Assembly (NCBI GenBank): GCA_903813345.2
Contig: CAIIXF020000011.1
Span: forward strand, 5,046,571-5,110,570
Direction of reading: 5' to 3'
DNA length: 64,000 nucleotides
From: Owenia fusiformis
Taxonomy: Eukaryota > Annelida > Polychaeta > Sabellida > Oweniidae
Shown: positions 3,712-54,026 of the stretch, one piece after another
Layout: every line of letters begins with the position of its first letter
Position numbering within the stretch: position 1 is the stretch's first letter
Program-made: the position numbers and the translations under genes
The notes under the pieces: generated by a model
The model's database searches: none
Told to the model about the DNA's origin: nothing
What the model saw: the letters and a program-made list of their open reading frames with translations, nothing else

Positions 3712-6599
3712 ATGAGAATGAATAATTCTATTGGAAAACTGTTCTTGACAGTATCATTGATGTTTAACATCATCCAGGGTGAGTAGAGATTTACTTTATG
3801 TTTATTATTCTTGTTTATTCATAAATAAATAAAATATCATCCAATCTCATGCTGACTAATGTACTAATTATAAAATATCATGAAAAATGTACACAATTTA
3901 AAATTCTTTGTAAAACAATGATGAATGCAAATCAATGCACCAAATTAAGTAGGCTATTCAACTTTTTTTTATTTTAAAGCATTTTCTTTCTAACAATAAT
4001 TGAAGATATTTTCTCACGGTCAAATCAGTGAATTTGATTTTTATCTCAAGCCAGCTTAAGCCCTTAACAATGAAAAGTACATTGTAAACAGTTTTGTATC
4101 CAGCATACAATCAGGCTGTTACACCCCAGTCACATTTGTCGTACGGAGGCCATGCGTCAACCGCAGATCAATTAAATCAGTGAATTTCTGCGGTGAGCGT
4201 ATAAAAACTACGCTCGCCTTGCGGCCTCCGTACGGCGTATCCAGTTTTTTACAGGCCAAAGGGTCACCGTAGAAATTATAACTCGGAGTTATAATATTTG
4301 TTCATTTCTGAGGTCCCCGTAGAAATCAACTGGCTCAACAAGATTGAATCATTATTTTTCAATATTTCACGATCACTTTTCATTTGATATTACATCCTAG
4401 CACTATGAATAACATTTACAAATTGTCCTGATGTAAATAAAATGAAAAAAGTATTATTTATCAACAGAAATTTAAAATTCACCGTGCGGCTGCCGTGGGA
4501 AATGTGACTGCAAAAGTATGAGAGCACAGAAATTCTACGGCGAGCGTAGAAAAGTTTCTGGCCGCAGAAATGATAGACCACACGACGGCCGTGGGAAATG
4601 TGACTGGGGTGTTAGTTACACAAGTGGATATGATCCACTGTTATATCCAAAATGATGTAGTTTTGTGTTTTAATATTATTTACATCAACAGGAATACGTT
4701 CTGTTCAATTCACAACAAGCAGTTCTAGGGGGTATCACAAAATAATGTAGTTTTATGTTTTTATCTGTTAACTAGTAGTATTCATCATCAATGTTCCTTT
4801 TCCAGACAACAATGCCGAAGGTGGAACCTGTGGTCAGAAGTTAAGCCAGAAGAAAGATTTGTGGGAAATTAGAGATACCATTACAGGAGATGTCATTACA
4901 CTGAAAGAAGAGGTTTCAAACTTGAGAGAAGAGGTTTCAAAGCTGAAAAACGTAGTTTCAACTTGTGTGAATAAACCTGATGTAAAGTGTGACAATGCAG
5001 AGTTAAAAGATGATATACAGAAAATAAGAAATGATTTGCAGATGTTACTTAGTGCAAGTGAGTGTTTGAAATAATTTTTGTAAGGGCAGCTGTGATTTAT
5101 GTTACCACACTTGCAGATCCCGGGGGGGGGGACTTCACTCTTCACTCATTTTAAACCTAATATGGACCTGAGAAAATATGCCTTATTATGAGAAATGACC
5201 ATATGGTAGCTAAAATCTTCATAAAGGTCCTAACTGTTTTGCAAATAAGGACTTTGCAATTTCCGTGAAGCCTCATATAAATTTGCCATGGACTTTCTAT
5301 TGGTAACTAAGCCAATATTATGACCAATAAACTATGGTAATCAATTATGACTGTTTCCTTATCGACAATATTAATGCAAAGTTTCATTGTACAGACTTTA
5401 CCTACATGTATTAGGCTACATGTATATATAATGCACATCATACCACAAAATAATTTAGATCAAATATAAAGTCAATACTGTAAATTGCTTTAATTTGATG
5501 GCCGTTTTAATTTGGTGGATTTGGCGGATGGATAGAAACCACCAAATTAAGTCTCCAACAATTTTTTTAAAATGAAATTCCCAGGATTTTTGTCCAATGC
5601 CTTTTTGTTCGACAAAACTTTGATGAAAATCTGAAATGAATGATGGATAAAATGGATAAACGCTGTGAAGTAAGTAATACGATTGATGATGGTCAATCAG
5701 CCAAATTATATAGCAGCCAAAATTTCAAAATTTGCCAAAATCCGCCAAATTAAACAGTGCCAAATTAAAGCAATTTACAGTATTTGTATACTAGTATGCT
5801 CCTTTTCTGTTTTAAGCTACTTCTTCCAAGAACTCTCATCAGATTGGTCAACTAGCTATTGTACAATATAGTAATGATCAACAAATGCATGCCATTATAC
5901 CAAATACTAGATAAAAATAAATCAAAAGTCAGCTTTGCCTCTCTTTTGTTTTAAGCTACTGTAGGGGTACCAGACTGTGAAAATCAACTCGATGGCAGGG
6001 TAAATATCAGAGCTACAGACAGAGTCTTCAAAACGCAATGTCTCAACGGTTGGCTTGTTTTCGCCAGGAGGTTTGATGGATCAGTTGACTTTTATAGGAA
6101 CTGGACAGATTACAAAAATGGATTCGGGCACACTGACGGTGAATATTTCTTAGGATTTAATCAAATATTATCAGTTTTGAAGCAGGGGAGTTACAAACTT
6201 CGTATAGAACTCACTACTTGGCCGGATCAAGGGAATGTCACAAAGTATGCAGAATATAGTACGTTTGATCTGGCAGGAGAGAGTGAACAATTCAGAATCA
6301 CTGTGTTGGGATACTCTGGAACAGCGGGTAATAGCATGTATTACCACAACTACGCGAAGTTTAGTACGAGGGACAAAGAGCATGATACATGGAGTGGTAA
6401 CTGTGCAACTATGTGGTTGGGAGCATGGTGGTATAAAGGTTGTTTGATTACAAATCCTTTTGGACCATACATGTCTTCATCACAATGTGATGTGGCTGCT
6501 CAATGCATGTATTGGGGTAATTGGCCAGAAAATATTGGTGGTCCATATAATAGGAACTACTCATTTAGAAAAATGAGGATGATGATAAGAAGAGTTTGA
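3712..6599 (+). CDS. Secreted coiled-coil fibrinogen-domain lectin, copy 1
   Basis: Predicted exons are 3712-3778, 4806-5057 and 5956-6599 (about 320 aa), all joined in phase 1 at GTGAGT donors. Exon 1 encodes a signal peptide starting MRMNNSIGKLFLTVSLMF. Exon 2 encodes a heptad-rich coiled coil (LKEEVSNLREEVSKLK) likely to drive oligomerisation. Exon 3 encodes a fibrinogen C-terminal domain: WLVFARRFDGSVDFYRNW, GFG, GEYFLGF, YKLRIEL and the calcium-loop region with DTWSGNCA, then AWWYKGC. Known relatives are ficolins, tachylectins and FREPs, secreted pattern-recognition proteins. The C-terminal subdomain around CMYWGNWP is divergent. The start is the first ATG after the TATA box. Exon 3 has two in-frame acceptors (exon start 5956 or 5965). 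The gene lies antisense within the VPS13D locus. An immune role is inferred from the family. Confidence 0.85.
4122..4611. mobile_element. CACTA-like MITE with proven 3-bp target duplication
   Basis: The inverted ends CACCCCAGTCACATTT and AAATGTGACTGGGGTG are flanked by TTA on both sides (4119-4121, 4612-4614). Unit 2 keeps the empty site (GGCTGTTAGTTACACAAG near 11553), which fixes the boundaries. Inside there are further inverted GTACGGAGGCC and GGCCTCCGTACG words. CAC ends and a 3-bp duplication fit the CACTA/EnSpm group. It has no ORF, so it is non-autonomous. Confidence 0.8.
5478..5780. mobile_element. TA-flanked MITE in intron 2 of lectin gene 1
   Basis: The ends CTGTAAATTGCTTTAATTTG and CAAATTAAAGCAATTTACAG are perfect inverted repeats flanked by TA, with inner inverted GGCGGA/TCCGCC words. 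A Tc1/mariner-type MITE is likely. The same element lies at 12782-13088, so it was present before the unit duplicated. Confidence 0.8.
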
Positions 6600-11159: not shown

Positions 11160-13905
11160 ATGAGAATGAATAATTCTATTGGAAAACTGTTCTTGACAGT
11201 ATCATTGATGTTTTACATCATCCAGGGTGAGTTGAGATTTACTTTATGTTTATTGTTCTTGTTTATTAATAAATAAAATATCGTCCAATCTAACGCTGAC
11301 TAATGTACTAATATCAATACAATATCATGAAAAATGTACACAATTTAAAATTCTTTATCAAACAACGATGAATGCAAATCAATGCACCAAATTAAGTATT
11401 TAACGTTTTTTTATTTTAAAGCATTTTCTTTCTAACAATAATTAAAGATATTTTCTCTCAAATCAGTGAATTTGATTTTTATCTCAAGCCAACTTAAGCC
11501 CTTAACAATGAAAAGTACATTGTAAACAGTTTTGTATCCAGCATACAATCAGGCTGTTAGTTACACAAGTGGATATGACCCACTGTTATCCAAAATAATG
11601 TAGTTTTGTGTTTTTATTGGTAACTGTACATCCTCCTAAGCAGGTGTCCAGCATCCGTACCTCCTTCTTCCCCCTGCTATAACCAATTTGGAAGCGCCCG
11701 ATAAAACTGAATCATGTGATCTAATTATGTGCGATGACGTATACATGATTGCTATCGCAAAGTTGCGACAGTGAATCAAATTGCGAGTTCTAAATCGGGG
11801 AAATGCCAACTGCTTATCACAGGAGGTAAAAAGAAAGAAGATATTCTGGATTTTGAAGCCCTGTGATCGGAGGATGGTAACTGTACAACATGAGTAAGTG
11901 TTTATTATCAATGTTAATCTTCCAGACAACAATGCCGAAGGTGGAACTATTGGTAAGAAGAATTGCAAGAAGCAAGATTTGTGGGAAATGAGAGATACTA
12001 TTACAGGAGATGTCACTACACTGAAAGAAGAGGTTTCAAACTTGAGAGAAGAGGTTTCAAAGCTGAAAAAAGAAGTTTCTACTTGCGCAAATAAACCTGA
12101 CACAAAGTGTGACAGTGCAGAGTTAAGAGAAGATATACAGAAAATACTTGGTGAGTGTTTGAAATTTTGTTAGCAATTATACAGGGCATCAGTGAAACAC
12201 TCACTTGCAGATAATGGAGAAATCACTCATTTTAGCCCTAAATGGGACCTCTTTTTGAGAAAATATGCCTTAATTTGAGAAATGGCCATATGGTAGCTAA
12301 ATTTTCATAAAGGTCCTAACTGGTTTGCAAATAAGGACTTTGCAGTTTCGGTGAAGCCTCATATAAATTTGCCATAGACTTTCTATTCGTACCTAAGCCA
12401 ATGTTATGACCAATAAACTATGGTTTGAATCTGTTATGATTGTTTCCTTATCTACAATATTAATGCAAAGTTTCATTGTACAGACTTTACCTACATATAT
12501 ATGCATATAAGTTTTAAAAACTATACCCGATATGAATCAAACTAAGATTAGACATCAACTACTTTTTTAAAAGAACTATATTTAATTCTTGTTTGGTAAA
12601 TCTGATTATCATTATTAGATAAAATTGAGAGGGTCTATTCCTCATTTTCATGATTCATTGTTACAATTGTTAATGAAAATTTTTTAATCACTTATCAGAT
12701 TTTCTTTATTTAGCTCATTTAGTCAAAATTGTAATGCACATCATATCACAAAATAATTTACTATCAAATATAAAGTCAATACTGTAAATTGCTTTAATTT
12801 GATGGCTGTTTTAATTTGGTGGATTTGGCGGATGGATAGAAACCGCCAAATTAAGTCTCCAACAATTTTTTCAAAAATGAAATTCCCAGGATTTTTGTCC
12901 AATGCCTTTTTCATGTGTTACCAGTTGCTCGATAAAACTTTGGTGAAAATCTGAAATGAATAATGGATAAAATGTCAATTTTAAACTATTTCTGATGACC
13001 TACAGAGTCCCCTCTAATTTGTATTATAAACAATCTGATTTGCCAAAATCCGCCAAATTAAACAGTGCCAAATTAAAGCAATTTACAGTATTCATATATG
13101 CTCCTTTTCTATTTTAAGCTACTTTTTCCAAGAACTCTCATCAAACTGGTCAACTAGCTATTCTACAATATAGTAATGATCAACAAATGCATGCCATTTT
13201 ACCAAAAACTAGATAAAAATAAATCCAATAGTCAGCTTTGCCTCTGTTTTTTTTTAAGCTACTGTAATGGTACCAGACTGTAAAAATCAACAGGATGGAA
13301 GAGTTAATATCAGAACTACAGATAGAATCTTCCAAACGCAATGCATCAACGGTTGGCTTGTTTTTGCTCAGAGGTTTGATGGGTCGGTTGACTTTTATAG
13401 AAATTGGGCAGATTACAAAAATGGATTCGGACAAATTAACGGGGAATACTTTTTGGGCTTTAATAACATATTATCAATTTTGAAGCAGGGGAGTTACAAA
13501 CTTCGTATAGAAATCACTACTTGGCCGGATCAGGGTAATGTCACTAAGTATGCAGAATATAGTACGTTTGATCTGGCGGGAGAGAGTGAGCAATATAGGA
13601 TCACTGTGTCGGGATATTCTGGAACGGCAGGTGATGGCATGGCGTACAGCAACAACGCGAAGTTCACTACGAGGGACCAAGATCGTGATACATGGAGTAG
13701 TGGTAACTGTGCAACTCGAGAATTTGGAGCATGGTGGTATAAATTCTGCACATATGCTAACCTATATGGACCTTACATGTCTTCATCACAATGTGATGTG
13801 AGAGCTAGATGTATGTATTGGTATAAATGGCCACAAAGTATAGGTCATCCAGATAATTTTGGCTACTCATTTAGAGAAATAAGGATGATGATAAGAAGGG
13901 TTTAA
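11160..13905 (+). CDS. Secreted coiled-coil fibrinogen-domain lectin, copy 2
   Basis: Predicted exons are 11160-11226, 11926-12150 and 13259-13905 (about 312 aa), in the same phase-1 arrangement as copy 1. Exon 1 is the signal peptide and exon 2 the coiled coil. Exon 2 is 27 bases shorter at its 3' end than in copy 1, losing about nine residues of the stalk. Exon 3 is the fibrinogen domain with WLVFAQRFDGSVDFYRNW, the acidic calcium loop TRDQDRDTW, SSGNCA and AWWYKFC. At the exon 3 acceptor only the upstream AG (13257-13258) survives; the second AG of copy 1 is AA here. The C-terminal subdomain differs most from copy 1 (ARCMYWYKWPQ), as expected if ligand binding diverged. Role as for copy 1; the family is clear, the ligand unknown. 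Confidence 0.85.
11629..11876. mobile_element. Short MITE with 9-bp target duplication
   Basis: The ends CATCCTCC and GGAGGATG are flanked on both sides by GTAACTGTA (11620-11628 and 11877-11885). A 9-bp duplication fits a Mutator-like element. It is absent from unit 1, so it is specific to this copy. It lies about 50 bp upstream of exon 2 of lectin gene 2. Confidence 0.7.
12782..13088. mobile_element. TA-flanked MITE in intron 2 of lectin gene 2
   Basis: Paralogue of 5478-5780, with the same CTGTAAATTGC/GCAATTTACAG ends and TA flanks. Confidence 0.8.
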
Positions 13906-14293
13906 GTTTGAGCTTTTATTCCATGAATAAAACTATTTTCTGTAAAATACTAACAAAACAAAAGTCATATTTTAAAATCCACTTTCAAATGCAATATTAG
14001 CAAAAATACCTGTGCGTGCTCTTACTATCATACAAAATCATGTATCAAATAATCGGTATATAACAAATTACAACTATAAATAAGATGAGAATATGTAATA
14101 AACATTAACAATTGAAGACATTTAGAGAGTTGGTTCATACTCTGTATACCTCATGGATGGAATAGATTTATATCGAACAAGCAACATTATTGGAAATTAG
14201 AACTTGAACTTTATCAGAAAATTCAGAATTCCTCAAATCAAGCGATTTTGGTTCAACAATGGGCAAGTATTGCCCTTTCTCTGTTGTTAAAAA
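13906..14293. other. 3' flank of lectin gene 2
   Basis: An AATAAA near 13926 follows the stop codon by about 20 bp. The remainder parallels unit 1 and holds no gene. Confidence 0.5.
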
Positions 14294-14450
14294 GACCCCT
14301 GACCACGACTTAAAAAAGACCCCTGACCACAACTAAAAAAGACCCCTGACCACGATTAAAAAAAGACCCCTGACCAGGACTAAAAAAGACCCCTGACCAC
14401 GACTAAAAAAGACCCCTGACCACGACTAAAAAAGACCCCTGACCACGACT
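14294..14450. repeat. GACCCCTGACC minisatellite, seven copies
   Basis: Seven near-identical copies with a ~22-bp period, against three in unit 1. Confidence 0.85.
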
Positions 14451-14771
14451 AAATATACCATCAAAGGGACAATATATGACTCTGTGTTATTCCAATTGAC
14501 TCTTGGCCTAGTGTTAAGGAGGTAATTAAAAAATCAAGTTATCATTCTATTTTCAATATCAACAACCAAAACCCCTGTACGAACCTTATCTTTGAAATAT
14601 TCACTTATATATATGTCATATAATTGACCATACTAAGGGATGATCTAGTGGGGCAAAAAGCTACTGAAGCCTAAAAATGTCCTCTACAGTCCTTATTGTA
14701 GCCCTGCCCCCATACTGTATCCCCCCTCCCGTTACGGGGGATACACAGTCTTGAAGCAAGATTACCCTAGT

Positions 14772-15824: not shown

Positions 15825-15937
15825 CTCGACATTCTCTTTTGGGCCTGTCACCATATAAAGGTTTTCTATAGAGATAACCCAGGCTTCTGATGTCATATGC
15901 CGGAATGGGATGTGCAGGGAAATACGACCAATGAAAC
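15825..15937 (-). CDS. VPS13D: VPS13D exon 3 (113 nt)
   Basis: Minus strand, after a TTTCAG acceptor, reads (G)FIGRISLHIPFRHM, TSEAWVISIENLYMV and TGPKENVE, then a GTATAT donor in phase 0. FIGR-I-L-IPF followed by a W-VISI-L motif is characteristic of the chorein_N region of VPS13 proteins. It is separated from exon 2 by a 10-kb intron that contains the Academ-like transposon and other insertions. Confidence 0.85.
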
Positions 15938-15958
15938 CTGAAATTAAAAGACACTAAC

Positions 15959-16453: not shown

Positions 16454-16682
16454 TGTTTAAAATTTAAGTATTTGTGGGACAGACAAGAGTAAAACAAAGG
16501 CTCGTAATCTTGAATGATTTATTTATAATCCTGAATCATATTACAATCTTGAAATATAATATAATCTTGAATAGGGGTTCATGCAATTCCCCCCCCCCCT
16601 TGGCCCAACAATTCTTTCAAAATCATGCAGTTTTTCACCATTCTGAGCACTTTTCACATTGTTTTGGGCACTTTTGGGCTAA

Positions 16683-16835
16683 TAGTCCGGATGTAGAGCC
16701 AGTAGAGGTGGAAATGCTTATTATATGAACTTTTTTTGCATTTTCTGTTTAAACATGATATCCATATTCAGAAACTGCCGGATGCCCAACGGGCATCCTT
16801 GAGGATTTTTTTTGGCGGCCATTTTGAATTTTCAC
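16683..16835. repeat. Left inverted repeat arm of the Academ-like element
   Basis: Matches the complement of 22722-22869, in particular GGAAATGCTTATTATATGAA and CAACGGGCATCCTTGAGG. It contains a short inner hairpin (GGATGCCC-AAC-GGGCATCC). Confidence 0.75.
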
Positions 16836-17206
16836 ACGTTTTATGTATTTTAGCCAGCATATTAGAACAGAAAACTAGCATACACATAAACATATCTTGC
16901 TGTTTTATCTATAATAGAGTTTTAATATGATGTAAACCAATATGTTAGGTTTAAGAAATGTTTCTTGACAAAAATAAAAAAAATTCAAGATGGCCGCCAA
17001 CCTTACAATTTATGAAATGTCTCATTCTGTGATAATATCAAATTGATATTAGTGTTTCCTACAAAATTATCAATAAATAATACTAAATACATCTGATTAT
17101 GATCTCTTTCTCACATATAAAATATCTGAAATGAGTAAAAAGTAACCTACATAATAATAATGATGTTCCACAAGGGTCATTTCTTGGTGCAATATATATC
17201 TTGAAT

Positions 17207-18814
17207 TTATGAATTATCTTCTTTCACTAAAATTTCATCAAGGATTTCCTTCAATAAATCCTCATCAGTTTCTTCCAATTCCTGTTCAGTTACTGTCTTA
17301 GTATGTTGGTTATTGCACTCATTCCCCTTGCAAACACAGAACAATGTACATGATAAAGATGCCTTGGAGCATGAACATCGGCCAGTTCCACATACATTGC
17401 CCTCTGATGCACATGTGCACTTAATGAGCTGGAGAATTCCTTCAGGGGCACAGGGTATGTCCTTGGGCATTGTTGTTGGGACAAGTGAGCCCGTGCTGTT
17501 AATTTCCCAACCATAATCTGTTGGAAGGATAAGTGGGGGGTCAGGCATATCAGCATTTTTCCATATAGCTACTTGGAAATGAGCTCGCTTCACATGCTGG
17601 GAAAATGCTTCTGTTGTTGGTGGGAGGGATTTTAGCTTTGGTGCATTTGTAATGTGTTTTGCAGCATTTTTCTTTGCCCATACAGCATATCTCACATCAG
17701 ACATTTTGTCAGTGACTTTAGGTGTAATTCCATAACATCTAGAAACAAATTCTGTTGAAGTTTTCTCAACTTCAGTCATGTCTGCATTGACATCTCCCAA
17801 GTTAGCCAGTGAGTATCTATTTAACACCTTCAGGACTGTTAGCTTGCCAATTCCATGCATGCAAGATGTCGTATCACTGCCAGAGAGACCATGCGCAGCT
17901 AACAAGTTTGGGATTTTTAATTTGTGTTCATTTAGGGTTGCATTAATGTTAATGTTTGCTCGGCCAGATGATGTTCCCTCCATTACGATGTTATTTTCAA
18001 TTAACTTGTGCTTGAGACAGTGATGAAGAAGTAGAAGGAAAACATCAGTATCATCACTGCGTACACTGATATTCTGTTGGCCTTTACTGGCAGCATGCAG
18101 AACCTGGTGTACGATAATAACATCTGCTTCTTCTTGAGTGTTCCTTAAGTCATCACGTTGGTCAATATTTCCTTTGTGAATTTGTACAGGTGTTGGATCA
18201 GGACCTGTGATAACAAGGATGTTGGAGAATGATCCTTCACTAGCTTTTTGAGTGAGATGGTCGATGACACACTTTATCAACTGGACCTTGTTCTCAGTCA
18301 CATTCAGAACAACATTCTGTGCAGGGAGAGGTGTGTCAGAGCTGAACTTATACACTCTACTGGCTGATTGAGCTCGAGATGACCTGGTGCTGTTCTTTAT
18401 GCTATTGTCTTTATATCTGTCAAAGATAAGGTATACATCTGATTCGGTTAGGAGTCTCAGGATGTATTTAGTGAAAGCAATACAGAAGTTTTCAATTTTG
18501 CCAGCCATCGGCCATGTTATGATCCAAAGGATGGCACACCCATCAACGACACGTGCATTGCAATTGTTTCCTCTTGAGGTCACCTCAATCTGTAACTTTT
18601 GTTTCAGTGTTGATTTTGAAGTTGTGATATTAATTTCTCCATTTTCATCAAATAGTGATGTCGGTATTGGGGAGAGTTCATGGGATATTACTTCAGGGAG
18701 GTCTACAGTGCGAGTCGCAATCAACCCAATTACTCTGGAGTATATAAGCTCTGTATCAAATACAGGGGTGTCATTAACTTGCACTCGCTTTTTGCTGACA
18801 GCCATTGTAACAAC
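17207..18814 (-). CDS. Academ-like element: XPG/PIN-like nuclease plus CXC domain (second exon)
   Basis: The ORF from ATG 18805 encodes 532 aa. A TTTCAG acceptor just upstream lets it be read from 18814 as the second exon of the transposase gene. Acidic motifs of the XPG/FEN1/PIN nuclease fold appear in order: VVDG (D88 of the 532-aa ORF), LIFDRY (D129), EEADVI (E225/E226, D228), SDDTDVF (D251, D252, D254) and HGLSGSDTTS (D311). Around residues 462-499 a Cys-rich tesmin/TSO1-like CXC segment (CTCASEGNVCGTGRCSCS) could bind DNA or zinc. The tail is acidic. A role in processing transposon ends or flaps is inferred. There are no stops or frameshifts. Confidence 0.8.
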   Translation of the reverse strand, partial: VVTMAVSKKRVQVNDTPVFDTELIYSRVIGLIATRTVDLPEVISHELSPIPTSLFDENGEINITTSKSTLKQKLQIEVTSRGNNCNARVVDGCAILWIITWPMAGKIENFCIAFTKYILRLLTESDVYLIFDRYKDNSIKNSTRSSRAQSASRVYKFSSDTPLPAQNVVLNVTENKVQLIKCVIDHLTQKASEGSFSNILVITGPDPTPVQIHKGNIDQRDDLRNTQEEADVIIVHQVLHAASKGQQNISVRSDDTDVFLLLLHHCLKHKLIENNIVMEGTSSGRANININATLNEHKLKIPNLLAAHGLSGSDTTSCMHGIGKLTVLKVLNRYSLANLGDVNADMTEVEKTSTEFVSRCYGITPKVTDKMSDVRYAVWAKKNAAKHITNAPKLKSLPPTTEAFSQHVKRAHFQVAIWKNADMPDPPLILPTDYGWEINSTGSLVPTTMPKDIPCAPEGILQLIKCTCASEGNVCGTGRCSCSKASLSCTLFCVCKGNECNNQHTKTVTEQELEETDEDLLKEILDEILVKEDNS

Positions 18815-19151
18815 CTGAAATGATTGAACATGAATGTTAAATGTAAATACAGTAAAACCTACTATAAGTATACATTTTTACATTTTGAGCCTATCAAATT
18901 CAGTTTCCAGTGCCCTATAAAACTCTCTGTAAAACTAAAACATAAAGTGGAAGTAATGAAAATTAATACATTAATAAAATCTTATTTGTCAAATTGGTGC
19001 TTGGTTGCAATATATATGTGTATACTCTGTCAATCAATATCATATTATTCTTCAAATCAAATCCATTTACATTCCCTACCATTAATAAAAAATTATATTA
19101 ATTTATCTATTCTATATTTTATGCAGAAAAATAATCAATCATTTTGGCTAC
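18815..19151 (-). other. Predicted intron joining transposase and nuclease ORFs
   Basis: On the minus strand, TCTAAG|GTAGCC at 19152/19151 is a donor in phase 0 and ATTTCAG|GTTGTTACAATG at 18815/18814 an acceptor in phase 0. Removal fuses codon 952 of the first ORF to V-V-T-M-A-V-S of the second, giving 1487 aa. The first ORF otherwise reads only ten more codons past the donor before its stop. Confidence 0.7.
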
Positions 19152-22007
19152 CTTAGAGGTTAATGATCCATAGAATCCCTCAGGCCAGGTCTCCTCATAC
19201 TTCATCCATTCTTCTGTGCCAAGTCTAACAGAGTCATAGGCATTAACAGTTACAGGACTCAGCTTTCCGGTGTTAATATTGATGAGAGATGCTGGATGTG
19301 ATTCTGGGTCCAATGGATCGATACATGTGACCAGCTTGTCACAAAGTTTCAAGCGGTCTGCTAAATCAGACTTTATTCTGGAGTTTCCTTCCTCCTTATG
19401 TGCAGTAATCACCTGATCTTGCTTTCCAGATATGCTTGCAAGATCATTCATCAGCTGACTACATACATGAAGACTGAGAGCCCACCTCTTTAAACTATTT
19501 GGGTTTAGGGTATTACCTATGATTCCACCTGGTCCATGACCATAGCGCATGAATGTAGTTTCAATATACATGTCTGACCATATCCCATTCCAAACACCTG
19601 GGGAATGACGGGTGACATGTTCCCCATTGAGAAAATGTTTAAGGACTTCTTCAGGTAGACCTTCCATGTCTCGTAAGTAGAACAAGCCATATTTTGCATA
19701 GTTAAAATGCCTTGCTGCGAAGAAATACGGGATCATGGCTTCAACAGCAGCTAAATGCAGCAGCCAATCAGCCTCACGTTCGGCCCTTACAAATGACATC
19801 ATAATAAACACAGGCTTGATGAGGTTTTCAAGCCACAGTTTGGAGGTCAGACTACTTGCAGCTTTGGTTTCAAGTGTGGTAATCAGGTCTTCATAGTTGG
19901 AGCACTGGTTAATAGTTGTCCTCAGAACCTCTTCAGTTAGCATTCTCAATGCCCTGGTGTTATTTGGAAAATTCTTGCCAGATAGCATTTTGGCTACTCC
20001 TGCGAATGTTGAACTGAGGATGTCCTCAATTCCACTTTCAGCCATCAATACTCCAACACACCCCACAAAACTCATGAGCATGTGCTTGCCACCAACTCTG
20101 TTAATAACATTATTCAATTTCAGGGGATAATGGAATTTGACTCCAACCACTATCTTGTACAGTTGCAGATCATTTGTAAGAACAACATAGGCTTGTCCAC
20201 AGTCCTTGGTGAGCTGCTGACTTTCCACAATTACAGTCAGCATTGAATTTGGGTCAGCAGGCTTCATGTCTATCAATGGTCTGTACTTTACTTTAGTGTG
20301 GTGTACAGTGGGGTGCTTTTTTTCTCTCGCTACTCTTGAATTATATCCACCAAATTCTGGTGTGTCTGGTGCACTTGTGATTTCAGAGAAGAAATTGAAA
20401 TCTAACTCTCTTGCTTTTTTTACAGTTTCAGATTGGTCATTTTGGAGGTCTGGAGAAAGCAGAGTTTTGGTAGCATAGGCTTGGGACATAGGTGGATTTT
20501 TAGGTCCTTCATATATTTGGGATGGGACATCAGGACAGCTTTCCCGAGAATCACTCAAAGGTAGCCTTGGGACAGTTGTATCATATTCATCATCTGCATC
20601 ATCAGTAGAATAACCTGATTGGCACTGTGTTAGAAGGAGCGCTAAGGCATGAGTTGACTTTAAACCATTTTGGGAAGAAATATTGGCATCAAAGTTATCA
20701 CTCATTAGTTGTATGAGTCCATCTTTATGGTCAAATGGACCATGATCATCGCCCTCTTTAGATACAGCTGATGCCACTGATGACTTGAACCTATTAACCT
20801 CTTCATAAGAACAGCAGACATGGAAATCAAAAAGGGAATTGATTAAGCACTTTTGTCTCAGTAAAACACCTAGAGCAACTTGCAGGGGGGTGTATCTTGT
20901 TGTTACTACACTGGTGATGATGTTACCAATCAATATTGTTGATAAGGATGATTTATTTAATTTTGGTGATATTGCCTCTAAGAGCATGATCAAGGTAGGA
21001 CTGACTGGTTCTGAGGCTATCCTTCCATTTATTCTTGTTTTGTATGATTTATTATTAGGACATACTTCTTTGCACTCTTTGATTATAATGGATGCAAGTT
21101 TTTTAACTTGAACATTTGTCTCATCTTCATCGACATTTTCATCATTATATAGCTTGGTCACTTTACTAGCAGCTGATTTATGAACCAATATATTGGCATA
21201 TCCTGGTGATGATAGCACAACATAATCATTCATAATTTCAGAAAGTCCATCAGTAAAACTTCGGCGGCACTTTTCACCATCAAATGTACAGTACAACTCA
21301 TACAGTTCATTCGTATTCCAAAACTTTGATAAGTCTTTTTCCATTTCTTCCGACACCTTGTACAAAGCAAGATCATGTGTTGAAGATGATGCACAACTTG
21401 ATGCCGCCTTTTTTACACAACATGCATTCATGAACTTGTGATAGCAGGCCTGGTGATATCTCCCATCTGCAGCATGTAAATCTGATACAGCACCCTGAAG
21501 TCTAACTTCTACTTTTTTAGACCATTCATCTCCACGCTCTTCACACTTCTGTAGAATATTATGTTTAAATGAGCCTTTATCACCACGATCAGCAGTTTTG
21601 CATTCTATAACTTTTTTCCACCTTTTAGGGTTATGAGGATCTAATGGTTTGCATATTTCCCCACAAAAAATGCAGTGTTCGAGGAAATTAAATGTTGGAA
21701 TATCAGATCGTCTCACACGTTTTGTCAAGACAGGAGAAGTATCTAATGCTTTGGTCGGTTTTGTTCTTTTCAGCTCTCTCTCGATATGAAACTTGGATGT
21801 ATATGTTGAAACACAGCTTTTGTGACTTTTTATTGTCCAGTCAGGATTACTATTTAGCTGAGTTGAAATGTCAATATGTATACTATCTTCCCGCTGTTTA
21901 CTAGAGGCTATGATCTTTTCAATTCTTTGGGCACCATTAATTTGCAAGTCTGTGGTACTATCTAATGAGCATTTCAAGAACTTTTTAAAATAACATTCTG
22001 TTGACAT
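19119..22007 (-). CDS. Academ-like DDE transposase (first exon/ORF, 962 aa)
   Basis: The N-terminal ~200 residues carry a Cys/His cluster: C112, C115, C119, C136 and the DLHAADGRYHQACYHKF signature (H178, H185, C188), probably a DNA-binding zinc finger. A likely catalytic region follows: LIQLMSDNFDANISSQNG near residue 437, GGKHMLMSFVG near 640, then RHFNYAKYGLFYLRDME and WSDMYIETTFMRYGHGPGG near 816. By analogy with RNase H-fold transposases, the Asp in SDNFD and the Glu in YIETTFMR are candidate DDE residues. The ATG at 22007 follows a TTTCCAG acceptor-like site, so an upstream non-coding or short coding exon may exist. The reading frame is uninterrupted. Transcription runs antisense to the lectins and parallel to VPS13D, whose intron 2 hosts it. 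Confidence 0.75.
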   Translation of the reverse strand: MSTECYFKKFLKCSLDSTTDLQINGAQRIEKIIASSKQREDSIHIDISTQLNSNPDWTIKSHKSCVSTYTSKFHIERELKRTKPTKALDTSPVLTKRVRRSDIPTFNFLEHCIFCGEICKPLDPHNPKRWKKVIECKTADRGDKGSFKHNILQKCEERGDEWSKKVEVRLQGAVSDLHAADGRYHQACYHKFMNACCVKKAASSCASSSTHDLALYKVSEEMEKDLSKFWNTNELYELYCTFDGEKCRRSFTDGLSEIMNDYVVLSSPGYANILVHKSAASKVTKLYNDENVDEDETNVQVKKLASIIIKECKEVCPNNKSYKTRINGRIASEPVSPTLIMLLEAISPKLNKSSLSTILIGNIITSVVTTRYTPLQVALGVLLRQKCLINSLFDFHVCCSYEEVNRFKSSVASAVSKEGDDHGPFDHKDGLIQLMSDNFDANISSQNGLKSTHALALLLTQCQSGYSTDDADDEYDTTVPRLPLSDSRESCPDVPSQIYEGPKNPPMSQAYATKTLLSPDLQNDQSETVKKARELDFNFFSEITSAPDTPEFGGYNSRVAREKKHPTVHHTKVKYRPLIDMKPADPNSMLTVIVESQQLTKDCGQAYVVLTNDLQLYKIVVGVKFHYPLKLNNVINRVGGKHMLMSFVGCVGVLMAESGIEDILSSTFAGVAKMLSGKNFPNNTRALRMLTEEVLRTTINQCSNYEDLITTLETKAASSLTSKLWLENLIKPVFIMMSFVRAEREADWLLHLAAVEAMIPYFFAARHFNYAKYGLFYLRDMEGLPEEVLKHFLNGEHVTRHSPGVWNGIWSDMYIETTFMRYGHGPGGIIGNTLNPNSLKRWALSLHVCSQLMNDLASISGKQDQVITAHKEEGNSRIKSDLADRLKLCDKLVTCIDPLDPESHPASLININTGKLSPVTVNAYDSVRLGTEEWMKYEETWPEGFYGSLTSKVAKMIDYFSA

Positions 22008-22721
22008 CCTGGAAATTAAAACGGAAATGTGAATTAAGAGAGCATTATGCGGATAGAAATTGGTATATTAATATTCTAAAAACTGAACTTATATATTTCA
22101 ACTATGAAATACAATGTTATATTTAATTTCTATAATAGAAATACTTATGTTCAGTAAAAATTAAGAAATTACAGTATTCACCATAATATACATGTTATAT
22201 AAACAGAATGTGTTGGAAGAAATTACCTGAAAGTGTAGGAATTAGCAGAGAAATAACTGACTCAGCACATGGCTAATTTTCAAAATGGCTCCCTTGAGAT
22301 TACTGGGGATTCCCTCCATTGCAAAGGGAATTGCCTGGGTTAACCCATGCATGACATCACTAGGGAAAATCCCAGCATTCTTATAAAGAATTATCTGGGC
22401 TTATCTATAATGCCATTAATGGGGTATAACATATTACTTGAATAAAAGGTTAGTCTATAAAATTCTTTTAGACACAGTTTAGAAATATTTATATTTAATG
22501 GATTCACGATCTTTGTACATGAGAAATTCAGCCATTTTGAAATTATCATGTGAAAAAACATCAAACTGGGCACCTGGAAGCTAAATCTATATGTAAGGGT
22601 TATGAAATTCAACATAATCAGTACTATATTATTTATAAATGTGCAGTTTCACTTATACATTGAATAATTAGCAATTAATTTTTCGCCGTTTTGGGCAAAC
22701 TGGTGTTACTTTTAAAATGGC

Positions 22722-22869
22722 TGCCAAAAAAATTCCTCAAGGATGCCCGTTGTGCATCCGGCAGTTTCCAAGAGCCAATACCCTGTAGAAATAGAAAATG
22801 CAAAAAAAGTTCATATAATAAGCATTTCCACCTTCACTTAAAATATGGCACTTCACATCCGGACTATAA
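22722..22869. repeat. Right inverted repeat arm of the Academ-like element
   Basis: Complement of 16683-16835, with CCTCAAGGATGCCCGTTG and TTCATATAATAAGCATTTCC. Confidence 0.75.
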
Positions 22870-22942
22870 AGTTGTCAGAAGTGAACCACCACTGGAATTT
22901 TCAAAAAGTGAACCCCTTGGCAAATCCTGGCTACGGGCCTGC

Positions 22943-24645
22943 TTAAAGGAACAAAATGCGTAAATTAAGTCTCACTTTTGATCTTCATAGTACAATGTAT
23001 TTCCAATGGATTAAAAAGTACCTTATCTTTCATTTGAGACAAAAAACAGCTCAATCAGATCACATCAGAGTCTACAGTAGATCATGAAAAAATATTTTCG
23101 ATCTATCAATTTATAAATTTCAAGTTTTTAGCAATGCCATTGGAAGATGGCATTGTTGTTTGCATTAATTATCCATTCATTTTTGATAGGATTTTCAACC
23201 ATACGCCATCTTTTAATCCAAGAGTTATTTAAACACATACACTTTGTGAAAAGTGGTAATTCACTTCTTTTGATCTCTGAACTTCAACTGCTGTTTTCTA
23301 TGCAAGTCTTTTTTTCACTTCAGTATTGACCCAATCTAAAGTTTTTATCACATTTGATTGAGTGTACCATGAGTACCATGTCTCAAATAATATTTTTTCC
23401 TTTTCCTTCAAAAATAGGCGCATTGTCTGTTTTTTTGTATTTTGTTTACCACCAACGAAGGTGAGCAATACCTCTTGGGTATGTCCCGTATATATACGGT
23501 CGTAATTTACGTAATTAACATGGAAGATAGACCCAGAAACCCCTCCTTGAAGGAGCCCTGTGTTCTTTTATGTGCACTTATACATAGACATACAAGTACA
23601 CACCACAGCCTTTTGTACGAGTTGCGGACCACTCAGTCAAACACCCTGAAGTACTTCACGCAAACAAGCAAATTAAGTCTTGCCTGAACCGGGTGTTAAA
23701 ATAAATATCTACGCTATTATGTTAAGCAAAATCCTGTCGTTTTGTTTCTTTAATTTCATCAAGAGATCCTTGGAAATGAGAGCCATCTATTTAACATTAT
23801 TAAAGCTCTTTTGATTGGCCAGATTTTAAATCAAACACTGTCTTGAGCCATATCAGCCACATGTTTTTTCTCTAAAGTATGAACAAATTTATGATGATAG
23901 GATTTATGAAATTCCCCTGAAATGTAGAGTATCAACTACCCTGCGCACAGAGTCTAGTTGTAAACTACCCTCTGCCTAGTATAGACTATATTACAGTTTA
24001 GCAGACCCGCCCCAAAGATTGGTGCCTGTGACAACCCGGGTAATTAATCATTTCAAATCTTCCACGCTGACCCTTTCTCAACCAATCAGTGAAGTGGAAG
24101 GAACACCTGTTAAATACTTCCTCATTAATGATACAATAACGTCAGAGGAAATGACCATATAGAAAGTCGTCCGTATTTCAACGATGATCTCTGATTGGCT
24201 CGGTGAGATCAGAGATTTATTGTAAACTGAAAGAGTGAAGATGGAGCTCTCTTCTAAGAAGTGAAGTCGAATGAATGCAAAGGGTAAGTATCAACTACAA
24301 GCCTTTTTACTTCATTCCTTGTTAATTCCTCTATGTTTTACTCTATTTTCATTTTTAAACATGAACATCATGAAATCTTTCTTTAGGTATTAATTACAAT
24401 TTATCTTACGTTTTAAATATCAACACACACAGAGGGTAAAGGTGACTCAATTTTGTTGATTTATTTCATTCATAATCCTTATCACATTACACATAACTTT
24501 GTGTTTATAGTTCAAGGTACTTCAAAAATTCCAAACAATTTTTGGCAGAAATTGTTTATTTATTGCATTATTTATTACTGAGTCATTGAAATTAACATTT
24601 GCCAGTTAAAGAATAAAATAAAATGAGTAACCAAGACTTAACATT
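22943..24645. other. VPS13D intron 2, no firm gene
   Basis: No recognisable coding sequence. Near 24080-24300 two CCAAT-type words (ACCAATCAGTG, CTGATTGGCTC) precede AATGCAAAGGGTAAGTATC. This could be a promoter and short first exon of a plus-strand transcript, but no downstream exon was found. Confidence 0.35.
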
Positions 24646-25817: not shown

Positions 25818-26076
25818 AATAATGTGAAGCTTCAATGAGGTCACTGTCAATATATAGCCAGGAATACAGCAGGTTTAACAAATAAACTTAAAAGAAACAA
25901 GCTTCTTAACAATTTCTTGTTTTCTCTACGATGTGAAATGTGAATAAATTAATATTATATCAAGAGATTTTTTTTGTTTGTTTCAAAACTCCACAGGGTA
26001 GGGCTTGTGAAAAAGAATGAGGTCATATAGATCAGGGCATATAAATTGGACCATATAAATCAGGGCATATTCTTAC

Positions 26077-26154
26077 CTGACTTTACTTCTAATGGCAGAT
26101 TTAAATGTTTTAATGCATTTTTCTTCAGGGGTAGATTTTCCAGTTCAACATCTC
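26077..26154 (-). CDS. VPS13D: VPS13D exon 2 (78 nt)
   Basis: Minus strand, after a TTTTCAG acceptor, reads (G)DVELENLPLKKNALKHL then NLPLEVKS(G), and ends at a GTAAGA donor in phase 1. V-ELENLPLKK-AL and LP-EVK-G are the signature of the chorein_N domain at the very N-terminus of VPS13 proteins. ELENLPLKK rather than ALKNLQIKE points to the VPS13D branch over VPS13A/C. It joins exons 1 and 3 in matching phases. Confidence 0.9.
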
Positions 26155-27012
26155 CTGAAAATGGATAACCATAGGATATGATTAAAGCTCTTATTTTCAA
26201 AGATTTTTTAATGGAACCAGCTGGGTCTTTTTCCCTAAAGTCGATCAAAGTTCAAAGTATTGTTTTAACATACAGGCACTAGTTACTTATCAATTTCTGG
26301 ACAAAACAAAGCCAAAAATACTTATCTTTTTGATCCAAAATATTTATATTAAAAAGCATTACGGGTATGAAGAGTACTTGACAGCTTGCCACATATAAAA
26401 TTTTTAAAACCTTTTTTTCTGAAGGTCAATCGAAGTTCAAGATATTTTTCCCAACAAATGTTTCAGAATGTAACAGTATAGTAACTTGTCACTTTTGGAC
26501 AAAAAACAGGCCAAAAAGAATTTTGGACAAAATATGTGAAATCATTTTAGGCCTGCCCCCCCCCCCCCCCCTTTATCCAGTAAAAGATTGTTTAGAGATT
26601 GTGGTTTTTATGGCTCTCGGATATGCTTGAAAATGTACCAGAGAGAGTCTAGTAAATGTCAAAATTTTTTTTGGAGGGGGCAGCCCCAAGACCCCCTAGC
26701 TTGTGGCGCTCTGTGCCAGTAATGCTTTGCATGGGCACATGTTCCAGGCACCTCGTCTATCCACAACACAACCCCTCTGTTTGCAGTCCCCCTTGAGAAA
26801 TCCCCCTGCCTTGGGAAATCCCCCTTGGGAAAACCCCCCTTGGGAAATCCCCCCTTGGGAAAACCCCCCTTGGGAAATCCCCCTTGGGAAATCCTTCAGA
26901 TGTGCCTGCATTTTACGCATTTACTTTAAGTAGAATGATCCACTTAAAATGAAACAACCAAAGGTTTAGGTTTTAATGTATTCAGTAATTAAATCATTAT
27001 GAAAGCACTTAC
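26155..27012. other. VPS13D intron 1
   Basis: Non-coding. It contains a poly(C) run near 26557 and, at 26785-26895, a ~16-bp minisatellite of CCTTGGGAAATCCCCC units (about seven copies). The SQGG-type peptides readable there are an artefact of the repeat. Confidence 0.6.
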
Positions 27013-27109
27013 CTTGCAATAATCCAATAGACAACTGATCTGTGTTAAGATTCTCGACATAATCTCCTAGATAGTACTGCAGCACCCAGGCTGCTAAACC
27101 CTCTAACAT
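27013..27109 (-). CDS. VPS13D: VPS13D exon 1, start of bridge-like lipid transfer protein
   Basis: Minus strand from ATG 27109 reads [20 protein letters not shown], then [12 protein letters not shown](G), and ends at a GTAAGT donor in phase 1. Vertebrate VPS13D begins with a nearly identical [23 protein letters not shown], as I recall it. VPS13D is a very large bridge-like protein that moves lipids at contacts between the ER and mitochondria or peroxisomes and is needed for mitochondrial clearance. The frame stays open upstream of this ATG, but MLEGL is the family start. Only the first four exons (about 122 codons) are in the window; full length in the family is over 4000 residues. Its introns carry a transposon, a LINE and probably the lectin gene pair on the other strand. 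Confidence 0.9.
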
Positions 27110-28854: not shown

Positions 28855-31800
28855 GGCCCTAGCAAGGGGGTTCGAGCAAACCCCCTCCCCCATGGCCTAA
28901 AATTCTTCAAGAACCATGCAGTTTTTCACCATTCTGAGCACTTTGTAAGTGATTTTGGCCATTTTTAGGGAAAAATTGTTAAAAGAAAACCCCCTGGAAT
29001 ATTCTAAGGCCAGGGTGTATGTTCGGAATTTTGCTGCATTCCTCAATTGAGTCACATGTTATTATCCCCACATTGTCTACATCTACCAGTTTTACACAAA
29101 GAGTGCACATATGTGCCTAGAAAAGACTGGTGCTTGTAAAATGTATAAAAAACGAGAAAAATCAGTGAAAAAAATTTCTGAAAATATTTCTGAATTTTTT
29201 TGTTTTTTATACATTTTATCAGCACATTCTTCTCCCCTACATTCTTTTCTATAGTGCTGATGGGCTTGAGCAAGCTATTGGTAGCACTTTTGGTCCCAAA
29301 GAGGTGGATTTTCAGACTTGCCAGAAGAAAACATTTTCCTGAATCATAATTTTACTTAATGTCTTACCTTTCATTTTTTATTGACCCAGAGATAACTTTT
29401 TGCATCGATTGGCTCTTCGGAAAGGACACACACATAATTGCAATTATTAAAGGGTATATATAAGTTTCATATTATGTTCTGCATATTTTGTTTTAAAGCA
29501 TGCACATTAGGGCCGTGCCATTCGACCGGAATCGGTCCGAACCGCGGACTTTTGTTAAAATACCGGAATTCGGAATTTTAATATCATGTTCCGAAGGGTT
29601 TCGGAACAATATCGGACCCTTACCTTAGTACTTGCTTTGAATCGTTAATATCCGTGACCATTGTTCCTCCAGTGATGTTTTCCTTCAAACTACATCCAAT
29701 TTGCATGTGTATTACTCGCATAAACAAAATAAATAGCGGAGAAATCAACAGAAATCAAGTTTTGTTTTACGAACTTTGACCTTCGGATTTCATTGGAAGT
29801 AGGAATCGACGGGGCGAAAATACTCATAGATAAATGAATAAATTTACTTTTCCATGACGTCTTACAATCTAACAGCGTTAATTAATTACATTTTAACTCT
29901 TACAATATCAGATTAATTGATTTAGAAGAAATTATCTTCCCCATGACAGATTTTCCTCGAGTAGTTTCAAAACTTTTTCAATTACGCATGCGCATTATGG
30001 TCAGAGCAGCCGGAAGTGAAAACAAGTAGAAAAAAGATCGAATTTTCTCTCTTTTTACAGATTTTAGAGTCTATTTCTTTCGTAAAAACATTCAAACTTG
30101 CTTGACAGGAAAGGTAAGTGTTAACCTGACAAACTTGGACGACGATATCGTCATGATCGCCGTCGAACTCACTCATACATAATTATTTTCATTTGTGAAC
30201 CAAAAGGGGTTCCGAAAGTTCCGATTCCGTGAGACCAAGTTCCGGTTCCGATTCCGAACCGTCCGAACCGGTTCCGGCACAGCCCTAATGCACATATATG
30301 GTTCTTAATAACTAATAGTTTTTATCTGAATCATTATCATAGAAATGAAATAGGAAGACCAATCTCGTCACTTGGCATGTGATTTTGGCAAAAAAGTTCA
30401 ATCATTTTTCCAATTATGATAATACTTAATAACGTTGAATATCCTGTTGATTTTTCCTTCTGTCTGAATCATTACAAAGTCCTTAATAATGTTTGTTTAT
30501 ATATGAGACAATCATGATAGTATATATGTGTACCATATGACTAAACTACACTTGTCCAAAGCTCTTCGGAAAGGACATTTTTAAGTGTATTGCCAAATAC
30601 TGTTAAATAGATTGAATTTGTGGGAGCAATTTTTGGTGATTGTACATTTGTTTCTATTCGTGTATTCATGTTTTCAAGATTTACCACAGATTACAACATT
30701 ATCTGCGATTTTTCATAGGTAAATATATGGGCGATAATAGGGCAGAACATCATTTAAGTCATCACTTTAAGGCTATCATGAATGTACTTATAGTTTTTTA
30801 GCTACTGGGCCAGGGATACATAGGCCTATGAAACAGCATTATGCACAGAAACGACTCAATTGTTGGTGGTTATTGTCAGTGAATTGAACCTTTTATCACA
30901 AGAAAAATAGTGATGAAGATACAATGTTATATTTGTGGCATTCTTCATTTGCAATTTTACACTCAAGTTTTTTAAAGGGTTTTACAGTACTGTACAAATC
31001 AAGATTCAATGTAATATTTGTAAACATTGTGCTAATGCCTTTATACATGAGTAGAAAAGTTAGTTATAGACATCCAATACGGGAGCATTCCTAATCAGAG
31101 ATTGGATTGCTCTTCGGAAAGGACACATTTAATTTTGTAGTTCCTGTTTAAGTCTTAGTTACTTCAGTAAAGATATTTTATGTGTGAAAGTTCATCAGAA
31201 AATATATTCCAGTGTGTTTCTCTTTAATATTGTTGGTAAATGTACTGTTTTGACATTCAGTACTTTTGATATCATCTTAAAAAAACAGTTAGCAAAGATT
31301 GGAAAATATGTTGAAAAAGTCTTTTTTAACATAAAATTTACAATGAAATGTTACACCAACGGTTGTGTGCTACAAGCGGTTATAAAAACTCTATACACTG
31401 TTATGGACACACTTGTTGCATATCATTTTAAAGCAAATTCCTTAATCTTTCCAATGCAGCCAAATTACTTTAACTTACTCTCTTCAAGTACATGCTTGAA
31501 GTATATGTAAATGTGGATTTTTTCTTGGGAATTTGTTACATAGAGAATAAGGCATATTTTGATACATGAAAATTTATAAAAAAAATTATCATTCATCTTT
31601 CAAAAAAATGATATCTTCCTCAGACATATAGTGGATATACCTAATTAATAAGACAAATTTCCCATCTGTATCTTAAACCTTGCATTTTTTCTGGGTGCGA
31701 ATATGAAAGTGCTACCAATAGCTTGCTCAAGCCCTGATACAAAATAATTGATAAGTTGTATAATTGGCATATTTTCTTGAATTTTAACATTTAATGTCCC

Positions 31801-44787: not shown

Positions 44788-47700
44788 ATGGAGGGTTTGG
44801 AGTCATTTGAAGAGGGTGAACTTCCCCCTTCACCTAAAGCTCAATCGCATCACATCTCCAAAAACAGACGGCCTAATATACAAGCATGGCAATCATTGAA
44901 CAATATCCTTCAAAAGACAAACCTTATTAAGCCGGCTCCAACGAAACTAACACAGAATGCCAATTATGCTGTGACAATTGGTAAATCGACTAAACCGAAA
45001 CATATCAGTCCTGTTAAACCACCAACTCGCCCATCAGGAAGGTCATATTCTCCAGTTCGTTTATCAACAGGGGATGACTACACTGATATGCTTAAGAACT
45101 TTAAAAAGGTCCGGGAACATCAGAGGTCAAGGTCAACAGAAGATGAGAAAATTAGGAGGAGGAAATATCGGGACCATCCAAGGAACAGGCATTTTAGCTG
45201 TACTGATTACAAGGAAACCATTGATCTCACACTGTCAGATAGGTAATGTATATTTTACACAATTGCATAGGTAACAAATTCTTACAACTTCCAATAACTT
45301 ATCAAATACTGTTTAGACCATCATGATATACCATGACATCTCATTTCTTCTCAGCCCTGAGATGCCATGATATAATGAGCTTGATTTGGCGATCCAGGAG
45401 AGCCCAAAATTGAGGATTTTTGAGATCTTTCATCCCAGCTCATATTTCATTTAATTGGGGTCATTAAACTTGTGTACACGTGCCTGTGCTAATATCTGCT
45501 GTTAAATACAATGCCTATTATGTAATGTATTGACATTAGGAAAATGATTACATGATATCTATCACACTTATTGACAGTTATAACTCTTCCTATCTGATGT
45601 GCTCAGATCACAAAATATGCCTCATAATATCAGAGCATGTTTCAGGTGAAACAGAAAGATGCTATGAGTATCAGAATGTGTTTAGACTGACTTCAATTTT
45701 TCAAAATCATCTACAAGCTCTCAGAAGTTCAAATCTGACTTTGATTTGAGGTTTGACCTTCAATGATCTTCTCAAGGTCAAAGAGTCTTTTCAACTTGCT
45801 TCAAATTGACTGATTTCTTTTCAAAATCATCTACAAGTTTATAAATAGAAGTTCAAATCTGACTTAAGATTTGACCTTCAATGACCCTCTCAAGGTCAAA
45901 AGGTATATTTCAACTTGCTTCTAATTGACCAAATTGTAATACTGTATTTATATCTTCTTCACTTCCAATAATTTATGTATTAGGTCAGTTATCTTAATTC
46001 TTTTATTCAGAAAATAAAAATAGGATGATGAGGGAAATATTGACTTGTTTTTATGTCACCAACAGAAGTTTTATAGTCTCCAACTTTTTTGTGAACTGTG
46101 TTTAGCATTTGGCAGCAGGTGGTAGGTAACAAATGACAGGTGGTGACATTTTGCATGTTAATGCCTTGTTGACGGCTGCTTTTAACACTTTACTTTCTTT
46201 CCCTTCTTGTTCTGTAAGGCCCTCATCGTCAGCTAGTGTTAGCCAGACCCATATTCTCAAAAATATACATGGTGATTCTGAGGAAAACCCTCTCGTCTGT
46301 TTTCCATCATCAAATGCTCATTTTATGAGGGTCCATACAAACATCATTTAAGCCCATTAGTTTTGGCTCCTACTTTTTGCCATGTTTTGGAGAAATCAGC
46401 TTTTATATAGTTCAAATATTTCTTTTTTTCACAATATTATAAGTTATTGAATGCTTTGAAGTGCAATACAGGATATATTCTGTTCGATAAATTTTGTATT
46501 GGAACGAGACGAAGTCGAGTGCCAATACAGAATATCGAGACAGAATATATCCTGTATTGCACTTCAAATCATTCCGTAACATTTTTATCGTGTGATCCTC
46601 TGTATTGCTACTGAGATTGTCCCCTCCGTAACAATATTTTCTGTATTGCGACAGAGATGATCAGCGAGGATAACCTCAGTAGCAATACAGATTGGTACAG
46701 CACAAGAATGGACCAATCAGAGGGCTTCATTTTACAGATCATAAGATAAACACAAGTACAATTGCCATATAAGAAAATTGTTCTGACATATTTCTAAATT
46801 TTCACTGTCATTTAGTGGGTTGTTTGCCACCTAAAGATTCTTTATTTGTAAATTTGTTTGGCACAATTGACAGACTAAACATAAACATAAGCTAAATTTA
46901 AATGAATTTAACATGGAAAAGTAGAAAAGTCCCTAAAAACAACAGATTTGTGAAAACAACCAGTGAAAATTGCCTGCTGCTAATGAAACCCCTGTATTCA
47001 TTAATTTCTGTGAAGTTGAAAATCACGTATAATCATTGTCTTTGAACTCTTTAAATCGTATGCATTCTATATATTTGCAGTGAGCCTATGGAAATCAAGA
47101 GGCCATTTCAGGAAAAGATGAGTGCCAAAGATAATACAAGGAGACAACTCTACAATGTTCCTGATAAGAAAGTATTTAAATGGGTCAATGGTGAACTGAA
47201 GCGTACAGCTGAAAACAAACATACAGGTGTAAGTAAACATTCGGGTGAAAATAAGCCTACAGGTGAAAATAAACATACAGGTGACAGTAAACATACAGGT
47301 GAAAATAAGCCTACAGGTGAAAATAAGCATACAGGTGACAGTAAACATACAGGTGAAAATAAATCTAGAGATAGAAATAGACATTCAAGTGAAAATAGAT
47401 CTACTGGAAGAAGCAAATCTGGAGGAGGAAATAAACCTTCAGATGCAAACACTGTGCCAGATCCCAAAGTTTATGAATCTACAAGATTGAGTCAATCAAC
47501 TGCTGCAAAGAAACTTAGTGGTGCAAATTCTGAGGCAATTTCTGTAGGTGAAAGGCGAAAAGATTTTGTAAGTCTAGTGACTGAGTATAAATCTTCGGGT
47601 GCAAATAAAACTGGTGCAAAGAAACATATAAGTGAAAGTAAATCTAGGGTTGCAATTAAATCTGCTGATGCAAAGAAAGTTACTGGTGCAAACTCCATGC

Positions 47701-53700: not shown

Positions 53701-54026
53701 GCCAACTGCAAAATGAATCTCAAACACAATTAGGAATTCTTCAATACAAATTAATCTCTCTAAAAAGAGAATTTGAACAAAAGCATTGTAACAAGATGGA
53801 GAATATCACCAAGATAAAAGATCAGAAAATCCTGAACTTAAAACAGCAACAATTGAAGAATCGTAATGCAGATGTTGATCATGTTTATGTCCATATACCT
53901 TTTCCCCCAGGACGTAAAGCACGTAGGGGGGAGAAAACAAGTCATAACGTGTATCTACCTAAATCGTCTGCCGAAAGTATGATACATGAGGACTGGATCT
54001 ATGATAGTAACTATGTATATGAATAA
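44788..54026 (+). CDS. Giant SIM- and SUMO-site-rich disordered nuclear protein
   Basis: Exons 44783-45242 (ATG 44788) and 47081-54026 join in phase 2 (AG|GTAATG donor, TTTGCAG acceptor), giving 2466 aa. The family is not recognised. Acidic SUMO-interacting motifs are seen: IDLTLSDSEP at the exon junction, IDIIDITDD, YLVLDETGE, DFVVVDEYVNED, DQIVLDEYV, EVITIEDDD, DYIVLDGH and DDIVIDDDSE. SUMO-attachment consensus sites cluster near residues 1270-1565 (IKNEP, VKKEP, IKKEIKTE, IKQEK, VKLEK, VKIEQ, VKLEIDNK). Two Cys motifs ending GAPCC lie near 518-547 and 1332-1359. Repeats are ENKHTGDSKHTG near 195-260, an SQ-rich tract near 1690-1858 and SQPENKDGGSECS units near 1862-2005. A coiled coil lies near 2259-2420. 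A nuclear-body or chromatin scaffold role is inferred from the SUMO features. An upstream exon is likely because only 5 nt precede the ATG. Confidence 0.8.
45243..47080 (+). other. Intron of the SIM-rich gene, with repeats
   Basis: 45695-45935 is an inverted copy of the window-start satellite. 46130-46165 carries a dispersed AAATGACAGGTGGTGACATT motif shared with 55925 and 57045. 46455-46695 is a hairpin element. Branch and acceptor sequence TATATATTTGCAG precedes exon 2. Confidence 0.7.
46455..46695. mobile_element. Double-hairpin MITE-like element
   Basis: 46455-46568 is a near-perfect palindrome (TTTGAAGTGCAATACAGGAT and its complement) with GACGAAGTCGAGTG at the centre. 46598-46695 is a second hairpin (CTCTGTATTGCTACTGAG / CTCAGTAGCAATACAG). 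Together they look like one non-autonomous element. Target duplications were not resolved. Confidence 0.6.
51690..52640 (+). repeat. Coding minisatellites inside the SIM-rich gene
   Basis: 51700-52200 repeats CAGTCACAATCTGAAAGC-type units encoding SQSQSESQSQPK. 52205-52640 repeats CAGCCTGAAAATAAGGATGG units that alternate 17 and 14 codons (93-bp higher-order unit). Both arrays keep the reading frame. Confidence 0.85.

Follow-up and report, generated by a model that had tools for sequence, protein, structure and literature searches.

An intact-looking, probably AcademX-type DNA transposon of Owenia fusiformis with a transposase-nuclease gene and a predicted intron between its halves

The window analyzed here is a 64,000-nucleotide stretch of the genome of the annelid Owenia fusiformis (contig CAIIXF020000011.1, positions 5,046,571 to 5,110,570), and it contains a 6184-bp element on the minus strand (16683..22866, in window positions as throughout) that is very probably an autonomous, intact-looking DNA transposon of the AcademX type with a single gene, in which a transposase is fused to an XPG/FEN-family nuclease. 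Two minus-strand open reading frames of the element, 19119-22067 (982 codons from stop to stop) and 17207-18877 (556 codons), are most likely expressed as one transposase-nuclease of 1487 aa through the predicted splicing of a 337-nt intron. Relatives both with and without this intron are present in the same genome, and codon differences between two copies of the element bear on the constraint acting on each half of the protein.

The gene and its junction intron

Coding exon 1, the transposase half (19152..22007, minus strand, 952 aa), ends with ...ACCTCTAAG followed by GTAGCC (AAG/GTAGCC), the intron is of the GT..AG type in phase 0 (18815..19151, minus strand), and coding exon 2, the nuclease half (17207..18814, minus strand, 535 aa, coordinates including the stop codon), starts after ...ATCATTTCAG (TTTCAG/). 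The initial annotation had proposed these two open reading frames with phase-0 sites on both sides, and the positions are as it gave them; the joined frame is free of internal stops, and the copy looks intact. Without splicing, the exon 1 frame of the window copy closes ten codons past the donor.

The intron is carried by seven loci in five protein families, comprising the window copy, its 98% copy L018, and L019, L020, L021, L022 and L023. A placement between the two halves was also part of the initial annotation and recurs in all seven loci examined, with the boundaries AAG/GT and AG/GT at the same residue and in the same phase. Protein identity between the intron-bearing families is about 50%, and the intron measures 337 nt in the window, 545 in L019, 138 in L021, 214 in L022 and 227 in L023. 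For L022, the fetched stretch covers exon 1 from about residue 335 onwards only, and exon 2 of L023 carries a frameshift. The gene model probably lacks part of its 5′ end, as an acceptor-like AG lies directly 5′ of the start codon (22009..22010, minus strand). Because a pyrimidine tract and AG adjoin the ATG across families, abutting it in all four of the intron-bearing families whose exon 1 start can be read (window 22008-22040), a non-coding 5′ exon is likely; by locus, the tract and AG precede the ATG in L019, L020, L021 and L023 as well, and lie a few bases further upstream in the intronless relative L017.

Continuity of homologues over the junction had been named beforehand as a test of the fusion, and the outcome of that test favours the fusion. 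The L017 locus (G000:C10:32838000-32846900) contains an intronless frame of 1468 codons that matches the full spliced protein in one frame, with 623 of 1476 columns identical and the alignment running through the junction. A search with the L017 protein recovered eight more-diverged rows, some of which may be near-copies of one another, each matched as a single piece spanning about residues 704-713 to 1451-1467 and none with a stop. Two of these rows (L054 and L055), when read, proved open through the junction, which together with L017 makes three of the nine intronless frames read. As site and phase are constant in seven of seven loci and an intronless relative encodes both halves in a single frame, the junction is more than a chance arrangement, and since the fusion is intronless in L017 and the eight further rows, the intron does not create the fusion and instead splits it in a single clade. 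When eight proteins are placed on a tree, the intron-bearing rows fall on one side of a branch with support of 99/97 and a single change, the tree being rooted at its midpoint only and its two deepest rows standing on long branches. Most probably one clade gained the intron, a direction that is favoured because the deeper-branching relatives examined lack it and that is not proved because of the midpoint root and the two long branches.

The enzymatic halves and their constraint

Codon-difference counts for the window copy against the C9 copy show that both halves have been under purifying selection as protein in the lineage producing these two copies. Exon 1 differs by 18 synonymous and 13 nonsynonymous changes (ratio 0.20; Fisher p 1e-5) and exon 2 by nine of each (ratio 0.29; Fisher p 0.009), with gapped codons excluded and codons with more than one difference scored as nonsynonymous. 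Overall divergence between the copies comes to 2.4% for the intron and 1.9% for the 3′ part, against 1.1% for both exons and 0.6% for the 5′ part; because the 5′ part is lower still, exon divergence alone proves no constraint. Exon 1 of the C9 copy carries a frameshift.

The XPG-like nuclease of the initial annotation is supported, the predicted fold of this half being EXO1/FEN1-like. The XPG/FEN-fold region occupies exon 2 residues 77-431 (17522..18586, minus strand), where identity to EXO1 is 13-14% across the aligned fold. Seven acidic residues, D91, D132, E229, D231, D255, D257 and D314, are invariant in all eight family rows down to 25% identity, and by motif they are the putative XPG-family catalytic acids; a weak EXO1 profile match covers the FDRY and GCD..GIGK stretches. 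Exon 2 residues 468-502 (17309..17413, minus strand) form a cysteine tail, presumably of the CXC type, with invariant cysteines, a model confidence (predicted local distance difference test, pLDDT) below 50 and a Pfam MSL2-CXC match of E 0.65 in one of eight rows. No relatives were detected in viral contigs when searching with either half or the alignments, nor in prokaryote genomes when searching with the nuclease alignment.

For the transposase half, a DDE-type core is plausible, with weak support from the structure model. The candidate residues D437 (or D440), D613 and E816 (span 19560..20699, minus strand), which would have a catalytic role, are invariant in an eight-row alignment, and the model has low confidence around D437 and E816. 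Pfam DUF6589 was matched in four of eight family members (best 3.3e-5) and not by the window's own protein, the Pfam search with the window's two coding halves giving nothing above the cut-off.

Element ends, target site and surroundings

The span initially annotated, 17207-22007, is the coding part only. The full element, TAGTCCGG...CCGGACTA, is bounded by terminal inverted repeats (TIRs) of about 150 bp and an exact 3-bp target site duplication (TSD), features that confirm its identity as a transposon. The left TIR at the gene's 3′ end (16683..16828, plus strand) matches the right TIR at the gene's 5′ end (22711..22866, minus strand) at about 81% over 157 alignment columns, and the TSD reads TAA on the left (16680..16682) and on the right (22867..22869). 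Other genomic copies have the same ends. With the flanks as queries against the window's own genome (G000, 498 Mb), 40 of 1328 and 40 of 1505 candidates were scored, and among the matches listed for the 3′ flank, 36 of the 39 non-window rows start at query positions 119-124, corresponding to the left end. An exact 3-bp TSD is present in seven of the eight fetched copies with both ends located (window TAA, C9 copy ATA, L003 TAG, L004 ATC, L005 TTT, L008 TAG, L031 TAC); L007, the remaining copy, shows no exact duplication and its 3′ end is altered, and L006 is missing its second end and stands outside this count.

Because the joined flanks match an abundant repeat continuously, the element is a clean insertion into a copy of that repeat. 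The match crosses the insertion point at 87-90% in all 40 genomic copies scored (of 2311 candidates), and a related empty site in the window, an uninterrupted copy of the target repeat (28867..29007, plus strand), crosses it unbroken at 77% over 145 columns. This repeat is interspersed, occupying window positions 16574-16682, 22867-22945 and 28867-29007 and at least 40 further genomic sites.

A fold-back derivative of the element is represented by L003, L004, L005, L006, L007, L008, L031 and further genomic rows. Mapping of three full-size copies (L003, L005 and L008) shows that both ends derive from the 3′ end of the element, that the inverted arms are about 1.3 kb long (96-97% complementary in L005), and that the middle retains part of exon 2 only, the transposase being gone. 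A stop at the W379 codon is common to the six fold-back copies checked, and L031 is a shorter form.

The element lies in an intron of a VPS13-family gene and in the same direction as this host gene, as judged from exon-sized VPS13_N matches that flank it on the same strand; the VPS13D intron of the initial annotation is thus upheld at the level of the family. The matches are at 27008..27109 (profile positions 1-34, E 1e-8) and 26075..26161 (profile 31-59, E 1e-5) upstream and at 15828..15941 (profile 58-95, E 2.5e-4) downstream, all on the minus strand, with E values from a genome search with the Pfam profile in which each match is singly below the family cut-off. A loose sequence pattern representing the first exon of VPS13 matched nothing, in contrast to the family search. 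Elsewhere in the window, two fibrinogen C-terminal domain frames that resemble each other, on one strand and about 7 kb apart (5955-6599 and 13258-13905), with similar short frames nearby, look like a duplication. A 23-bp unit forms a tandem array at 14287-14456, a single open frame of 2323 codons at 47055-54026 contains stretches of short repeats (such as SQPENKDGGSECS) without matching any Pfam family above the cut-off, and a 373-codon frame at 61744-62865 matches Exo_endo_phos (E 3e-9).

Proposed mechanism, alternatives and known systems

Predicted splicing of the 337-nt intron would give the fused protein, whose cysteine/histidine and CXC parts may bind DNA. In the most likely course, the putative DDE-type core would cut the element ends and join them to the target at staggered cuts with a 3-bp offset in a cut-and-paste reaction, and the tethered XPG-type nuclease would cut or trim the non-transferred strand or 5′ flaps at the ends.

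The position of the intron also permits readings in which the halves are made apart. It could act as a splice switch with three products and differing transposition outcomes, where the spliced form gives the fused enzyme, the retained form a transposase without nuclease, possibly a repressor as in P elements, and an ATG past the acceptor the nuclease alone. In the P element, intron retention yields a shortened transposase and is a known control device; retention would shorten the transposase here as well, any regulation of the present intron being hypothetical. Such a switch is permitted by the ATG at exon 2 codon 4 and the early stop on retention, and we regard it as unlikely. The gene could also have become two translation units in this clade, with the transposase ending inside the intron and the nuclease starting separately at the codon-4 ATG, a reading we likewise consider unlikely. 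This ATG is found in all five intron-bearing families in the context ACN-ATG-GC, with Phe in the three intronless rows, and read-through of the intron reaches a stop within 5-10 codons in the window, L019, L021, L022 and L023 and after 19 in the C9 copy. However, AT-rich introns are expected to hold early stops, the residues Thr-Met-Ala by themselves dictate the ATG context, and, with four families sharing 171 invariant columns out of 520 gap-free ones in exon 2, a single conserved Met is unsurprising, points that count equally against the switch. Separate units are further at odds with the phase, which every family preserves across the intron, and with exon 2 residues 1-3, which are open and alike (VVT/VIT).

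Two other alternatives concern what the protein does. The nuclease half could be a catalytically inactive XPG fold retained for DNA-structure binding or dimerisation, as the identity of just 13-14% to EXO1 might suggest, but the invariance in all eight rows of the seven acidic residues, putatively catalytic by motif, makes this improbable. Domestication as a host gene of transposon origin would accommodate constrained open frames within a host gene intron, yet the inverted repeats, exact 3-bp duplication and uninterrupted target-repeat copies amount to a simple insertion, and the constraint estimate comes from comparing two separate insertions, leaving domestication highly improbable.

Taken together, the data favour an autonomous transposon with a fused transposase-nuclease. 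Within the Academ superfamily, AcademX has duplications of 3 or 4 bp and AcademH of 9 or 10 bp, a difference tied to the encoded nuclease and helicase (Kojima 2023, PMC10045372). It fits an active role of the nuclease and is no proof of one. The initial annotation had called a transposase with its own flap-type nuclease mechanistically unusual, but this pairing is already known, since the AcademX description has a nuclease together with 3-4 bp duplications (PMC10045372). Literature searches for Academ with XPG and transposase, in which AcademX coverage is thin and absence says little, returned nothing, and neither did those linking DUF6589 to a transposase, where silence likewise says little.

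The present copy alone reveals no new kind of element. As far as seen, the junction intron in one clade, the fold-back derivative without transposase and the start-like ATG past the acceptor in five of five families are new. The analysis provides an intact-looking AcademX copy with exact ends a second complete copy that shows constraint on both halves, and relatives with and without the intron in one genome, which together make the role of the tethered flap-type nuclease in transposition directly testable. Nuclease-bearing lineages of Kolobok (KolobokE, KolobokD and KolobokP) show that the general idea of a transposase accompanied by a nuclease recurs, there with other nuclease folds and in another superfamily (PMC9587614). 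AcademH belongs to the same superfamily as the present element and differs in its helicase and 9-10 bp TSD (PMC10045372); no helicase family is among the Pfam matches of the window's two coding halves or of their 8 + 8 family rows, and the duplication found is 3 bp. In length the element is of similar order to bivalve Academ elements, whose stated mean is 5565 bp (PMC10294476). With AcademX it shares a transposase and a nuclease in one element, inverted repeats, and a 3-bp TSD within the 3-4 bp range, and it is unlike AcademX, compared through its published description only, in having an intron exactly between the enzymatic halves in the present clade. It is best called a well-preserved member of AcademX, assigned by description from its nuclease and TSD length, with the clade-specific intron as its one unusual point.
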